Shown one piece after another: positions 1,091-6,280 of a stretch of 64,000 nucleotides of DNA. Made by a program: the position numbers and the translations under genes. Source of the stretch: Kibdelosporangium banguiense (GTDB lineage: Bacteria; Actinomycetota; Actinomycetes; Mycobacteriales; Pseudonocardiaceae). Positions within the stretch are counted from its first letter, which is position 1. Every line of letters begins with the position of its first letter. The stretch lies in contig NZ_JAGINW010000001.1 of the NCBI RefSeq assembly GCF_017876405.1, positions 620,001 through 684,000 on the forward strand. Direction: 5' to 3'. Below the pieces are notes generated by a model. That model was not told the DNA's origin. It searched no databases and saw nothing but the letters and a program-made list of their open reading frames with translations.

Positions 1091-4000
1091 ATGGGACAGC
1101 CACGGCTACCTGACCACCTGGCGATCCTGTTGACCGATGAGCCGGTCATCGACGTGTACGCCTATGGTCCCTGGCGGGTGCCTGACGGCCTGTTCGAGGA
1201 GATCACCGCCCGCGCCGAGGCGCTCAACAACGACCCCCGCGCCAAGGAACTGCCGTATCAGCTGAGCGATTTCTACGGCGAGAACACGACGGTCGTCGGC
1301 GCCGAGCTGTGGTGCCTGCTGCAGTACTTGACCGGTATCTCGGCGGTGCGTGGCGGCAACCGCGCCGACATCGAGACCGAGCTGCTTGGTGGCTTCCGCG
1401 CAGAGCCGGAGCCGCCCAACCGGAGCGCGACGTACTCCTGCGCACGAGCCAACAACTTCCGGCCGCCTGGTGACTGGCTCACTTCCGCAGCCGGCAACGA
1501 TCCCGGCAAACGACGGCTCGCCTACGAGCTTGCGCGCGAATGCCTCGACGTCTTCGCAGGGCTGGAGCCGTTCGAGCACCGTCGGCAAGCTGTGATCGCG
1601 CTGCATGAGTTGCCCAAAGCGGAAGAAACCGACAGCACGCCGTACGGCAACCTCACCGACATCTGGTCCCGCGCGGCGACCACCGAGATTCTGGCCGAGT
1701 TGCCGGAGCTGGCCGGCCCGACGAACCACCTCGAGTGGGTGGTGACGGGATTCGTCGCGGCGCATGAACGACTCAGCTCGGTGGTCCCTGGCGGGGACCC
1801 GTACGGCATGGTGGCCAGTTTGCTGCACCAGACCGGCGTCTGGGAGGTGCCGGCTGAGTTCGCGGTGTTCGCCGACGACGCCTTGTACGACCGTGTGAGC
1901 AGGTACATGCGGGAGACCTTCACCGATTCCTGGGCGGGCGAGGCCCGGGCGTGGCTGGCTCGGGCCTTGGTCGCGGGCGAGGCGGACGCGTGCCGCGCGT
2001 GGCTCGATATGGCTGCCCGGTTCGGTGCGGCGGTGCATGGCCTTCCTGGGGAGCCAGTGTCGGCGACCACGGACGTGCCGGTCACCGGTTTCCAGCGCAC
2101 GCTGCGCCAGATCTTCACCCGTCGTCCCGTGCTCAATCCGTTGGTCCGCACGCTGGCGGCCATGCCCCGGGAGGAGCCTGCCAAGCCCGCGGCCGGTGAA
2201 CCGGACATTCCGCTGATCGGCCAGCCCGCGTTGACCGCGGCGCTACGCGACATGCTGGTGGCTCTTCCAGAGGACCAGCAGTCGCCGATCCGGCTGATGA
2301 TCGCCGGGCCGGACGGCACAGGGCGCCGTACAGGTGCCACCGCGTTGCTCAAGGAGCTGGTCGCCAAAGGCACCGTCTCGACCGTCAAGTGGGTGTCCGA
2401 GCAGCTGTACGCGAGCATGGACGCGACCGGGGCGGTGCATCAGCTGAACCGGGACATCGCCGACTGCATCGCCGAACGTCAGCTGCTTGTGATCGACGGC
2501 CTCGACCGGATCCTCAGTTTCGACCGGTGCGGCGCGGCGCTCATCGAGGAGCTGCGCCGGTGCCTCAAGCGGTTCGCCGAGCTGCACGTCGTGGTGGTGT
2601 GCGGGCCCGCCGGCGACACCAGGTTGTTCGACGCCAACCCGGCCTTGTACCAGCAGTTCCGGGTGGCCAGGACGGACGAGTTCACCGACAAGCACTATGC
2701 AGATTTGCTTAAAAGGGCTGTCGCGCGCCGGGGCGCCACGATCAGCCGGGCGGTCAGCCTCACTGCCGGGGTGTTGCTGTCGCGCACTCCCCCGCTGTTG
2801 AACTTGCGTGGCGCCAGGCTGGTCGACTACCTCGCCGAACAGTGCGTCGTGGCCGCGCGCAAACGTGCCAAGGTCGGCAGGTCGCGGTCGGTCAGCGTGA
2901 CCGCCGCGGACCTGCCGCGCCAGCTGGTGCCGGGTGGCGTCGCGGGCACCGACCCGCAGGCCGAGCTGGACTCGTGCGTGGGCCTGGAGAAGATCAAGCA
3001 GGAACTCGCGCTGCTGGTCGCTGAGGAGAAGGCGCACCGGATGCGCCTTGAAGCGGGCATGGTCGTCGACCGGCGCCCCCGGCACATGGTCTTCACCGGC
3101 CCGGCCGGCAGCGGCAAGACCATGGTGGCTCGAATTCTGGGCCGCATGTTCGCCGGGACCGGCGTGCTGTCGTCCGGCCACATCGTGGTGGTCGACCGAG
3201 GGGACCTCGTCCACGGCGAAACCTGGGAGATAGGTGCCCGCGTACGCCGCGTCGTGGACCGCGCGGTCGGTGGCGTGCTGTGCGTCGAGGCAGTCCACGA
3301 GTTGCAGCCGGCCGAGGAGGACTGGCGCAACAGGGAGGCCATCAACGCCTTGGTGGGCGCCGTGCAGAGCCACGAGAAGGACTTGGTCGTCGTGCTGACG
3401 GGTCCGGACGCGGCGGTGAACGGGCTGCTGAAGTCCGAGAAGGAACTGGCGGCGTTCTTCCCGTCGGTGCTCCGGTTCCCGGCGTTGACCCAGGACAGTT
3501 TTGTGGCTCTTTTCCAGAGCAAGGCCGCCGAGGCCGGGTTCACGTTGCAGGACGGCGTGGTCGAGAAGGTGCGCAGTCTGGTGAAGGCCACGCCGACCGG
3601 CAACGCGCGGCTGTCGGTGGGGCTCCTCGAACGAGCCATCGCCCGCCAGGCGCGCCGCGTGCTGGCCGACGACGTGGTCAGCGAGGACGAGTCCCTGCAC
3701 GAGATCCTGGTCGAGGACGTGCCCGACACCCTGGCCACGACGTCCTGGGTCGAGCTGCCCAACGACCCGGTGGCCGAAATCGAGAGCCTCATCGGGCTGG
3801 CCGTGGTCAAGGAGGAAGTGCGCCTGCTCGTGGCCGAGGCCAAGGCCGACCGGCTGCGCCGCGAGGCCGGCATCCCGCTGGCGGCGCCGACCCGGCACCT
3901 GGCGTTCACCGGGAACCCGGGCACCGCGAAGACGACCATGGCCCGGCTGCTCGCGGCGGTGTACGCGAAGCTCGGGCTGCTCTCGTCCGGGCACCTGGTG

Positions 4001-4588
4001 GAGGTCTCCCGTGGGGACCTGATCGGTGAGTACCTCGGTCAGACCGCGCCCAAGGTGCGTTCGGCGGTGGCCCGGGCGCTGGGCGGCGTGCTGTTCATCG
4101 ACGAGGCCTACTCGCTCACGGACTCGTGGTACGACGACTACGGTTCGGAAGCGGTCGCCGAGCTGGTCAAACTGATGGAGGAGCACCGCGAGGACCTGGT
4201 CGTGATCGTGGCGGGCTACGACGGCGAGATGGCCCGTTTCCTGGCCAAGAACCCGGGCCTGGCCTCGCGGTTCCCGAACACGCTGCAGTTCCCGGACTAC
4301 ACCGAGGACGAACTCGTCGCGATCTTCGAGGGCATGGCCAGGAAGGCCGGCTACGAGCTGCACGCCGACGTCAGTCCAGCTGTCCGTGAGCTGCTCAAGC
4401 GCACACCACGCGGCAAGTCGTTCGGCAACGGCCGCTTCGTCCGCAACGTGTTCGACCGGGCGGTGGCTCTCCAGGGGAGCCGTATCACCAGCGGCGTCGG
4501 ATCACTCGAGATCAGGCTGCTGCTGGCGGAGGATCTGCCGCCGGCCAAGGACGACCAGCAGGAGCTGCGTACAGGCCAGTACCTCTGA
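1091..4588 (+). CDS. Giant CbxX/CfxQ-EccA-like AAA protein with three tandem AAA modules
   Basis: A 1165-residue cytoplasmic protein. Residues 1-360 are an unassigned, mostly helical region. Three AAA modules follow. Module 1 (about 372-610) has a broken Walker A (GPDGTGRRT, 406-414) and VIDGLDRIL as a Walker B remnant. Module 2 (about 620-880) has a good Walker A (GPAGSGKT, 670-677), but its Walker B reads VLCVEAVHEL where the family has a D-E pair. Module 3 (about 890-1150) keeps VLFIDEAYSL (1000-1009) and has GNPGTAKT at 941-948, with Ala in place of the usual second Gly. The module 2 and 3 sequences resemble the CbxX/CfxQ ATPases and the C-terminal ATPase of type VII secretion EccA. No EccB-E, WXG100 or Rubisco gene is nearby, so the substrate is unknown. 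The ATG is preceded by a gagaggggg ribosome site. Confidence 0.9.
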   Translation: MGQPRLPDHLAILLTDEPVIDVYAYGPWRVPDGLFEEITARAEALNNDPRAKELPYQLSDFYGENTTVVGAELWCLLQYLTGISAVRGGNRADIETELLGGFRAEPEPPNRSATYSCARANNFRPPGDWLTSAAGNDPGKRRLAYELARECLDVFAGLEPFEHRRQAVIALHELPKAEETDSTPYGNLTDIWSRAATTEILAELPELAGPTNHLEWVVTGFVAAHERLSSVVPGGDPYGMVASLLHQTGVWEVPAEFAVFADDALYDRVSRYMRETFTDSWAGEARAWLARALVAGEADACRAWLDMAARFGAAVHGLPGEPVSATTDVPVTGFQRTLRQIFTRRPVLNPLVRTLAAMPREEPAKPAAGEPDIPLIGQPALTAALRDMLVALPEDQQSPIRLMIAGPDGTGRRTGATALLKELVAKGTVSTVKWVSEQLYASMDATGAVHQLNRDIADCIAERQLLVIDGLDRILSFDRCGAALIEELRRCLKRFAELHVVVVCGPAGDTRLFDANPALYQQFRVARTDEFTDKHYADLLKRAVARRGATISRAVSLTAGVLLSRTPPLLNLRGARLVDYLAEQCVVAARKRAKVGRSRSVSVTAADLPRQLVPGGVAGTDPQAELDSCVGLEKIKQELALLVAEEKAHRMRLEAGMVVDRRPRHMVFTGPAGSGKTMVARILGRMFAGTGVLSSGHIVVVDRGDLVHGETWEIGARVRRVVDRAVGGVLCVEAVHELQPAEEDWRNREAINALVGAVQSHEKDLVVVLTGPDAAVNGLLKSEKELAAFFPSVLRFPALTQDSFVALFQSKAAEAGFTLQDGVVEKVRSLVKATPTGNARLSVGLLERAIARQARRVLADDVVSEDESLHEILVEDVPDTLATTSWVELPNDPVAEIESLIGLAVVKEEVRLLVAEAKADRLRREAGIPLAAPTRHLAFTGNPGTAKTTMARLLAAVYAKLGLLSSGHLVEVSRGDLIGEYLGQTAPKVRSAVARALGGVLFIDEAYSLTDSWYDDYGSEAVAELVKLMEEHREDLVVIVAGYDGEMARFLAKNPGLASRFPNTLQFPDYTEDELVAIFEGMARKAGYELHADVSPAVRELLKRTPRGKSFGNGRFVRNVFDRAVALQGSRITSGVGSLEIRLLLAEDLPPAKDDQQELRTGQYL

Positions 4589-4599
4589 CAAGCGAATTG

Positions 4600-6021
4600 T
4601 CAGGAAGGGATGTCCGTACGGCGGCGTGCTGGGCGCGTCTGGAACGGGATCGCGGGTGGAACCTCCGGGTCGCCGGTCTCCTCTACCGGCGCGCAGGGCG
4701 TGGCGAGCCGGATCTGGTTGCGGCCGGCTTCCTTGGCCGCCAGCAGCGCAGCGTCGGCCGCGAGCACGAGGCGGTCGACGTCCACACCGGAATCCGGGTA
4801 GACCGCAGCGCCCATCGACACGGTTATGCCGTCGAGAACGAGTGACTTGGCGGTCTTGGCGTGCGTGATGGTCACCGGGGTGTGCGCGAGCCGGAGACGG
4901 ATCCGCTCCCCGACCATCGCCAGCTCGGACGGCGTTGTCCCTGGCAACAAGACGGCGAGCTCGTCGCCACCCCACCGGGCGGCGAGATCGCCGCGGCGGA
5001 TCTCTGAGCGGACCACCCTGACGACAGACTGCAGGGCCTGGTCGCCCGCAGGGTGGCCGTACTTGTTGTTGATCTCGCTGAAGTTGTCGACGTCCATCAT
5101 CAGGATGCCGACGTTGCCGCCGACGAGCTGGGCACGGCGCAGTTCGGCGCCCACCACCTGGGACCAGAAAGTGGGCGCGGCCAGTCCGGTCTTGTCGTCG
5201 GTGCGGGCCGCGCGCTGGTACTGGGGCAGCAGCAGGTCCCTGTGGAGAGCCAGCACGGTGACCATCAGGACTGGCACAACCCACGGGTTGGAGGCCTCGA
5301 GGGCGCCGACCGCGATGCCGAGGCCGAGCGCGGCGGCCACAACAAGCTGCTCGGACAGGTCGCCGAGGGCGGCACGAGCGTTGGTCTCCGGGTTGGAGAG
5401 CAGGATCGCGCCGACGACCATGGCGTAGTTGACGAGCCACCACGTCGCCGCGGCCGAGACCACGACGACCAGCGACAGGAAGTCGACCGGCACACGTGGC
5501 GCCGCAGCGAGGCCACCTGCCCTGAGCACGGCCGACGCCGCGGCACTGGCCAGGATGAAGGTCGCCGCCGAGAAGATCTTGCGGTGCCAGACGAACTCGC
5601 CGTACACCCGCAACCAACAATACGTGTAGGCGATCACGGCAAGACCGACTACAAGCGGTAGTGGAAGCAGCAGTACTCCGGTAAACACCCAGAGTGACTT
5701 CAGGTTGGTGTACGGGACGCCTTCGACCGCCAGTTCCCGCCGTCGCTCGATGCTGCGGGCTGCTTCCAGGTGCAGAATCGACGCCACGGTCAGGACCGCG
5801 AACCACACCCATTCCTTGCCACTAACGGTGGAATGCAGACCGGCGATGACTGTGACCAGCGCCGCCGCCAGGTCCGTGACCAGCACATACGCCAAAGCGG
5901 CGCGCGGCAGCGACCACAGCCGCCACTTGCTGGGCGAGACCCAGTTCAGCCTGGGGTTCACACTCTTCACCAGGCCCGTTTCTCGATCTCGGGTCACCAG
6001 CAGAACGGTAATCGGGATCAT
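4600..6021 (-). CDS. Membrane-bound diguanylate cyclase (GGDEF)
   Basis: A 473-residue protein that probably makes cyclic di-GMP from two GTP. The first 260 residues hold about six hydrophobic segments (near 40-62, 70-85, 110-138, 150-165, 178-208, 225-258) forming a membrane sensor region of no named type that I recognise. The GGDEF domain begins near 273 (DDKTGL). Its active site is RWGGDEL (GGDEL at 351-355), a permitted variant of GGDEF, and an RxxD inhibitory site (RRGD, 342-345) lies five residues before it, so product feedback is likely. The DVDNF motif for Mg/GTP is present. I chose the ATG at 6021; an in-frame TTG at 6084 would add 21 residues but lies against the neighbouring divergent ribosome site. 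The C-terminus converges on the AAA gene 11 bases away. Confidence 0.88.
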   Translation of the reverse strand: MIPITVLLVTRDRETGLVKSVNPRLNWVSPSKWRLWSLPRAALAYVLVTDLAAALVTVIAGLHSTVSGKEWVWFAVLTVASILHLEAARSIERRRELAVEGVPYTNLKSLWVFTGVLLLPLPLVVGLAVIAYTYCWLRVYGEFVWHRKIFSAATFILASAAASAVLRAGGLAAAPRVPVDFLSLVVVVSAAATWWLVNYAMVVGAILLSNPETNARAALGDLSEQLVVAAALGLGIAVGALEASNPWVVPVLMVTVLALHRDLLLPQYQRAARTDDKTGLAAPTFWSQVVGAELRRAQLVGGNVGILMMDVDNFSEINNKYGHPAGDQALQSVVRVVRSEIRRGDLAARWGGDELAVLLPGTTPSELAMVGERIRLRLAHTPVTITHAKTAKSLVLDGITVSMGAAVYPDSGVDVDRLVLAADAALLAAKEAGRNQIRLATPCAPVEETGDPEVPPAIPFQTRPARRRTDIPS

Positions 6022-6086
6022 CACCCGCTGTCTTTCGGCCAGTCGGGGGTCTTGTGCCGATCCGATGTGTACAGAGAGGAACAATC

Positions 6087-6236
6087 ATGTTCGGAAACGA
6101 ATGGGTACAGCGTGGCAACGAGTGGTTCGCCGGCAACGAGTGGTCTCAGCGCGGCAACGAGTGGTTCGCCGGCAACGAGTGGTTCGCGGGCAACGAGTGG
6201 TTCATGGGTAACGAGTGGACCCAGGCCGGCTGCTGA
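6087..6236 (+). CDS. 49-residue peptide built from seven GNEW repeats
   Basis: A small ORF with an excellent ribosome site (gagagga, 6074-6080, six bases before the ATG). Apart from the start MF and the tail TQAGC, the product is seven copies of GNEW separated by two- or three-residue linkers: VQR, FA, SQR, FA, FA, FM. The order shows a duplicated 13-residue unit (VQRGNEWFAGNEW then SQRGNEWFAGNEW) followed by two six-residue units. The peptide is rich in Trp, Asn, Gly and Glu, acidic, and ends in its only Cys. It has no signal peptide or membrane segment. A strong terminator follows 11 bases after the stop, so it is probably a single-gene transcript. I do not recognise the family. A ribosomal peptide precursor, a self-assembling peptide or a regulatory micro-protein are all possible; no ATP-grasp, radical SAM, LanM or YcaO gene is adjacent. 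Confidence 0.75.
   Translation: MFGNEWVQRGNEWFAGNEWSQRGNEWFAGNEWFAGNEWFMGNEWTQAGC
6093..6218 (+). repeat. Tandem coding repeat encoding GNEW units
   Basis: Seven in-frame repeats of 18 or 21 bases with the core ggcaacgagtgg. The copies differ at few positions even at synonymous sites, and the 13-codon block is duplicated almost exactly, which suggests recent expansion by slippage or unequal crossing over. Copy number may therefore vary between strains. Confidence 0.85.
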
Positions 6237-6247
6237 TGCACCAGGGC

Positions 6248-6280
6248 GGTGGCGGGCTCGCCCTCGCTGAGCCCGCCACC
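6248..6280. terminator. Bidirectional hairpin terminator
   Basis: A perfect 12-bp stem (ggtggcgggctc / gagcccgccacc) with a 9-base loop sits between the convergent GNEW gene and paaE. There is no U-tract, as is common in actinobacteria. It can end both transcripts. Confidence 0.75.

Follow-up and report, generated by a model that had tools for sequence, protein, structure and literature searches.

Does a very short reading frame that encodes seven copies of the tetrapeptide GNEW specify a real peptide, and what could such a peptide do beside a membrane diguanylate cyclase (DGC)? We pursued this question from one locus of Kibdelosporangium banguiense, which lies in a window of 64,000 nucleotides, to the related loci of other genomes. 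The features of the locus are collected in Table 1.

Table 1. Features in and around the repeat peptide gene, with positions counted in the window
Feature	Position	Strand	Basis or remark
Membrane DGC with GGDEL active site and RRGD I-site	4600-5970	-	GGDEF domain match, comparison with relatives
Promoter-like motif AACGGTAATC-N16-GTC	6004-6032	+	same motif at 61 of 62 homologous loci
Presumed 5' leader of the peptide gene	6033-6086	+	near-invariant across seven genomes of the genus
Shine-Dalgarno sequence AGAGAGG	6073-6079	+	7 nt upstream of ATG; invariant in 7 Kibdelosporangium genomes
Repeat peptide gene, 49 aa, seven perfect GNEW cores	6087-6236	+	ORF, homologues, pN/pS
Hairpin with 12-bp stem	6248-6280	+	3' of the peptide gene, before the convergent paaE

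The peptide gene and its surroundings

The reading frame translates into MFGNEWVQRGNEWFAGNEWSQRGNEWFAGNEWFAGNEWFMGNEWTQAGC, and its length, its seven units and its ribosome site are as the original prediction had described them. The first core occupies residues 3-6 (MFGNEW), so that its Trp is residue 6, the place it also has in the micro-ORF hexapeptides described below. Tandem Repeats Finder detects periods of 18 nt and 39 nt in the array. Searches with the window peptide gave no Pfam or NCBIfam match and those with seven relatives none above the cut-off, in keeping with the earlier statement that no known family has this repeat. Rfam had no match in the window or in ten loci, a PDB search with one relative returned nothing useful, and no signal sequence was evident when the peptides were inspected by eye.

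The promoter-like motif comprises GTAATC (6008-6013) and GTC (6030-6032). In seven genomes of the genus the presumed leader hardly differs, although the coding DNA on its flanks diverges; unlike the leader, the coding part of the peptide gene varies synonymously among Kibdelosporangium. To the right of the peptide gene lies the convergent paaE of the phenylacetate operon, and the hairpin in front of it (-32.2 kcal/mol, z -2.29) has paired changes in two relatives (G004 and G006). A hairpin is thus present where a strong terminator had been predicted, but because it has no T run and sits between convergent genes its function as a strong terminator is plausible rather than demonstrated.

The divergent gene to the left had rightly been named a membrane DGC. 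Its start was set to the GTG at 5970 by comparing relatives, and it encodes hydrophobic N-terminal segments and a GGDEF domain (PF00990, E 2.6e-36); for the membrane domain at its N-terminus Pfam gave no match, at E up to 1. Both the catalytic site GG[DE]E[FL] and the inhibitory RxxD I-site are intact in 59 of 59 DGCs of peptide loci; the partner DGC is a putative producer of c-di-GMP. In having both sites intact it resembles other membrane GGDEF cyclases, from which it differs in a membrane domain without Pfam match and in its coupling to a peptide gene. An AlphaFold model of the DGC (5 sequences) reached a pLDDT of 37 and was put to no use. In the six Kibdelosporangium GNEW loci that were compared, the DGC has as its neighbour a 1165-aa protein (1091-4588) with CbxX/SpoVK-type AAA domains.

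Distribution of the fused repeat peptides

Homologues with a conserved frame or repeat, and the repeat number among strains, had been proposed as checks. Such homologues were found in the genus and across the Pseudonocardiaceae. Seven of eight Kibdelosporangium genomes have the GNEW peptide gene, with 6 or 7 units, and the eighth (G007) has a different peptide, MTTTSSAARTGRPTDWRTQRPTDWARR, in the same kind of locus. Two adjacent GNEW units are encoded in 16 of 390 Pseudonocardiaceae genomes, belonging to 4 of 46 genera, and the reversed pattern in none of the 390; the GNEW repeat is far beyond chance. In a sample of the order, adjacent units occurred in one of 298 genomes, the window's own, and in none of the 244 genomes of this sample from other families. 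A search of plasmids with the peptide (tblastn) gave no match, and one of phages a single weak match.

Outside the genus there are nine GNEW loci, and these too face a relative of the DGC, about 48-56% identical. We searched the membrane domain of the DGC in 73 genomes without GNEW and examined 30 loci, taking the best locus per genome: each of these best 30 had a divergent short repeat ORF that bears another core (STDWTF, RPNDW, RPTDW, RPSEW/RPTEW, RPNEW or PTDWT). A motif search blind to the DGC matched 64 of 386 genomes, the reversed pattern matching three; among 30 loci examined from it, the repeat ORF adjoins a divergent DGC in 25, and the other five look like chance matches. Three genomes (G083, G142 and G244) combine a GNEW locus with a match to a second core pattern, and in G083 and G142 each of the two peptides has its own DGC. 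A Prescottella locus (L024) was rejected as a homologue, since it has a single unit without repeat and was put down to chance. Records labelled Rhodococcus rhodnii NRRL B-16535 (L022) and Actinosynnema sp. ALI-1.44 (L023) carry the locus; these labels may be outdated or wrong.

Selection on the cores

The family core is [PGS][NTS][DE]W, as found in 302 units of 60 distinct peptides at 62 loci, with 2 to 10 cores per fused chain. All 302 Trp residues lie within cores, and there are synonymous codon changes at the first three core positions. The core type varies with the DGC (GNEW, PTDW, PNDW, PSEW or STDW). Within the cores pN/pS was 0.00 in two GNEW groups, the STDW group and the g8 PNDW group, 0.02 in the g11 PTDW group and 0.33 in g25, where core types switch, against 0.45-1.39 outside the cores; the core columns were picked by motif, which favours low pN. 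By these ratios, 0.00-0.02 in five of six groups, the cores are under purifying selection at the protein level, and the tiny ORF looks like a real, selected peptide gene, whose product is indicated by selection and not by experiment.

The recent expansion that had been read from the near-identical repeats agrees with the 6 or 7 units within the genus; it does not agree with the synonymous codon differences, nor with one clade, g11 PTDW, in which the repeats are old because the linkers are conserved by position. The acidic charge noted for the window peptide holds for Kibdelosporangium and the STDW group, but P-core peptides range from neutral to basic. There is no cleavage site common to all peptides, and some are almost without Arg and Lys (STDWTF, GNEWFA).

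Gene neighbourhood

We compared the ORFs of at least 80-90 codons in 35 neighbourhoods of fused peptides and 18 of micro-ORFs. The DGC is present in all 35 fused-peptide neighbourhoods (34 by clustering, L102 by tblastn). A gene for a transporter of the MFS type is near the peptide in 29 of 29 neighbourhoods outside the Kibdelosporangium GNEW loci (as partial matches in L096 and L097) and in none of the six Kibdelosporangium GNEW neighbourhoods; the best MFS matches in the seven Kibdelosporangium GNEW genomes are only 45-48% identical. Usually MFS and DGC are on one strand with the peptide gene between them on the opposite strand. In five g8 loci with P cores the MFS is on the other side of the DGC, and in some loci (L241, L335) it is not the direct neighbour, L241 having an extra gene between peptide and MFS. 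Across clades, DGC and MFS are the sole families that recur. The other recurrent gene families, of which a minority were annotated, are confined to sets of loci that share their gene order, in at most 6 of 35 and 8 of 18 neighbourhoods. In a conserved block of eight f34 loci (L322-L329) a gene of one family, with ThiF and Nitroreductase domains by Pfam in L325, follows about 3 kb after the array, which may be mere synteny.

These neighbourhoods bear on the suggestion, made earlier, of a multi-core RiPP precursor, here with modifying enzymes encoded elsewhere in the genome. Multi-core RiPP precursors contain many short core copies parted by variable linkers, and the fused peptides with their invariant repeated cores are like some of them. 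They are unlike them in having no leader, the first core lying at residues 3-6 and the micro-ORF Trp at codon 6, and no recurring modifying enzyme: no family but DGC and MFS recurs across clades among the ORFs of at least 80-90 codons in the 35 and 18 neighbourhoods. The relatives, moreover, have one core per ORF, and Thr, Ser and Lys are not conserved across cores. We now regard a RiPP precursor as very improbable. A graspetide was likewise dropped on inspection, there being no conserved Thr/Ser/Lys partner.

The pattern GTA[AG][CT][CT]-N13-16-GTC precedes 61 of 62 peptide genes, with a spacing of 15 or 16; on the reverse strand it occurs at 0 of 62, and in shuffles 1.06 times on average and 5 times at most. 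By its form only, we take the GTA[AG]yy-N15/16-GTC motif to be ECF-sigma promoter-like. In 14 genomes a tight version matched 61 times and its reverse 35 times; of the 61 matches, 12 belong to peptide loci and one more (L143) stands before a related DGC without repeat. In genome G000 there were 4 matches against 5 reversed. A large sigma regulon is unsupported, the motif being at most weakly enriched genome-wide.

Another reading of this arrangement is control in cis, by translation or antisense: translation of Trp-containing micro-ORFs would tune MFS and DGC, for example via charged tRNA-Trp. The position of the array, mostly between MFS and DGC on the opposite strand, the invariant Trp and the near-invariant leader of Kibdelosporangium would suit such control. 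It is difficult to reconcile, however, with the conservation of residues other than Trp, with synonymous changes, or with a next gene that is on the other strand in the window; the Kibdelosporangium lineage has the peptide without the MFS, and in the five g8 P-core loci the MFS is on the far side of the DGC. We judge cis control to be improbable.

Tandem micro-ORFs at related DGC loci

We also analyzed 69 lower-scoring DGC loci, 40 from Pseudonocardiaceae (three of the fused kind), 28 of a second family (f34) and one from the window's genome. The fused [DE]W form, defined as at least two polar-[DE]-W units, is absent divergently at 37 of the 40 and at 29 of 29 related DGC loci. In the same place beside these related DGCs stand micro-ORFs in tandem, every one of them preceded by a separate ribosome site. 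ORFs of 5-20 codons that have a ribosome site and, close to their end, a Trp motif number 177 in 49 of the 69 loci; there are none on the reverse strand, and 20 rounds of shuffling give 0.8 on average and 3 at most. Among ORFs of 6-11 codons, 165 from 51 of 69 loci have Trp at codon 6, whereas only 40 Trp stand at any other position; on the other strand there are four such ORFs in all, with one Trp, at codon 5, and none at codon 6.

The commonest peptides are MRDNTW (36), MRDNNW (34), MRDTTW (24), MRDKIW (17), MRGNSW (12) and MRANSW (10), beside rarer ones, and the residue after Trp in the 165 micro-ORFs is T in 42, S in 27, D in 22 and N in 10, with none in 36. The largest array has 13 copies. 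In several arrays (L189, L157) the spacers differ and the peptide is constant; in others, L208 among them, the copies are recent, because the spacers are nearly identical too. ORFs with two cores, MRDNNWTTRRDNNWT, MRDTNWVLRDTNWSW and MRENTWRENTWK, link micro-ORF and fused forms, and L142 has a single core of the fused type (GRPTEWNR). The window's genome has a second member, MRGQNWRGQNW (L300, about 5782-5817 on the minus strand, near C1:2876.8 kb), which is divergent to a DGC paralogue and has no adjoining MFS.

An MFS match was present in 58 of 75 micro-ORF-type loci searched, many only 1.4 kb long, in 24 of 28 f34 loci, and in 17 of 18 micro-ORF loci with longer flanks. At L320 and L321, DGC loci of a Pseudonocardia plasmid and of Nonomuraea, no micro-ORF passed the filter. 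When 17 related loci without a clear Trp micro-ORF were re-examined, L173, L175 and L192 proved to bear Trp micro-ORFs of other make-up, and besides these and L142 the rest of the 17 had nothing clear. In L299 and L305, from two species, MRSIEF and MRGIEF stand between MFS and DGC and are possibly a hexapeptide type ending in Phe.

The single-core relatives make a self-assembling repeat peptide less likely. They also matter for the possibility that the peptide acts inside the cell as a multivalent short linear motif, which would bind the cytosolic face of the DGC or another partner, cluster the DGC subunits and thereby set their activity, with neither export nor cleavage. Fixed cores between linkers that vary and lack a common cleavage site, 2 to 10 cores per fused chain and an MFS that can be absent all fit such a motif. 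Peptides with one core are, however, incapable of multivalency, and the MFS is otherwise conserved; an intracellular motif is in our view unlikely.

A further possibility is a peptide of the microcin C kind, short, formylated and perhaps modified at its end, which would be exported by the MFS and act on other cells while the DGC regulates its production. The product of E. coli mccA begins with fMet-Arg, as do those of the micro-ORFs, and the microcin C precursor ends in a C-terminal Asn. The micro-ORFs share with the microcin C system (mccA heptapeptide, ThiF-like MccB, MccC pump) a length of 6-8 codons, a strong ribosome site and a pump at the locus (PMC6495379). On ORFs of 2-8 codons a ribosome can go through repeated rounds of translation and stay bound, as it does on the seven-codon mccA (PMC6495379); this favours a microcin-like reading and may also be the reason why the micro-ORFs stay short. 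The likeness in short precursor and pump concerns the micro-ORF relatives only and does not hold for the 49-aa window peptide, and the fused forms are unlike microcin C precursors. Differences are the tandem copies, a Trp near the end in place of the C-terminal Asn (Asn seldom follows Trp) and the constant neighbour, which is the DGC and not a conserved MccB-like gene. The ThiF-nitroreductase gene about 3 kb downstream in eight loci of one syntenic group could speak for such a peptide, whose ORFs of 6-8 codons start with MR near an MFS, but it is found in 8 of 18 loci only, all with the same neighbour block. We consider a microcin C-like peptide quite unlikely.

Evolution of the two forms

The core type changes 8 times on a DGC tree that comprises 59 fused-type and 7 other sequences; the minimum is 7 and the mean in shuffles 37.4. 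In a tree of 94 DGCs, obtained by a quick search without bootstrap and with two distant DGCs as its root, the 49 fused rows all fall into a single clade (SH-aLRT 99). Of the 32 rows in its sister clade 30 have micro-ORFs, and more lineages with micro-ORFs split off outside. The simplest reading is that the micro-ORF form is probably ancestral and the fused form derived; the deep order of the tree is uncertain because of long branches. The first cores of Kibdelosporangium keep the micro-ORF geometry (MFGNEW, MSGNEW, MNGNEW), and the window peptide appears to be a fused form of tandem hexapeptide micro-ORFs. This link and the switching of cores had been missed by the original prediction because other genomes are needed to see them.

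At the level of sequence these comparisons establish selection on the translated product, a conserved locus, co-inheritance with one clade of DGCs and a single fused clade. The anatomy of the locus we regard as almost certain.

A possible peptide signal for the cyclase

We propose that the useful part of the peptide would be the repeated tetrapeptide core, and that the micro-ORF relatives would make a hexapeptide of the type M-R-D-x-x-W. The core would be set free from the fused chain, or be synthesized as a hexapeptide from the start, and would be exported by the nearby MFS or, in Kibdelosporangium, by an MFS paralogue. Outside it would be sensed by the polytopic membrane domain of the partner DGC, which would then change c-di-GMP, and more copies of the core would mean a larger dose. 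From sequence we infer the export, the sensing and the effect on c-di-GMP. As a mechanism, an exported peptide signal that is sensed by the DGC is the likeliest of the readings weighed here and seems to us possible, if somewhat short of probable.

One DGC column (residue 208, Q/V), at the edge of a predicted membrane helix, tracks cores of the T-D-W type; simulated traits equal it in 0.002 of runs with at most 3 residue types and in 0.032 with at most 5, and the rule holds in 11 of 11 added loci, which are mostly close kin. Column 253 fitted the first set without exception (0.000 and 0.005) and then held in 10 of 11 added loci, failing in L257, the sole independent added lineage. In the MFS no column tracks the T-D-W trait (27 loci), whereas core position 1 has two tracking columns in the MFS against one in the DGC (27 loci). 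Because the trait was grouped in several ways and most of the added loci are closely related, this is weak evidence, and column tracking is suggestive only of a receptor specificity between peptide and DGC. Mimicry of the core by an EW/KEW loop of the DGC was dropped, as the loop does not vary with the core.

Known peptide pheromone circuits include Agr, Phr/Rap and the yeast alpha-factor, whose precursor has repeated copies. Like them, the loci described here combine the gene of a small peptide with a putative exporter and a polytopic signalling protein of the membrane, and have several copies per precursor. They differ in that the candidate receptor is a DGC and not a histidine kinase or GPCR, in lacking a common processing site, and in being known from sequence. 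Among the papers listed by a literature search that covered few subscription papers, none dealt, by title or start of abstract, with these peptide strings or such a system. We are aware of no kind of locus in which genes for tandem or fused hexapeptides stand together with a membrane DGC and a transporter; a bench result could still place this one among peptide signals or microcins.

Put more generally, leaderless hexapeptides of Actinobacteria, multiplied in dose by tandem or fused copies, might be extracellular signals that a membrane DGC reads directly, with several sets of peptide, cyclase and exporter per genome. This generalization is tentative and rather doubtful. The signals of membrane GGDEF enzymes are mostly unknown. 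If the proposal is true, these enzymes would gain a genetically encoded partner that can be synthesized and tested at once, and tandem, near-identical ORFs of 6-8 codons together with their in-frame fusion would be a gene organization that gene finders with length cut-offs would pass over.
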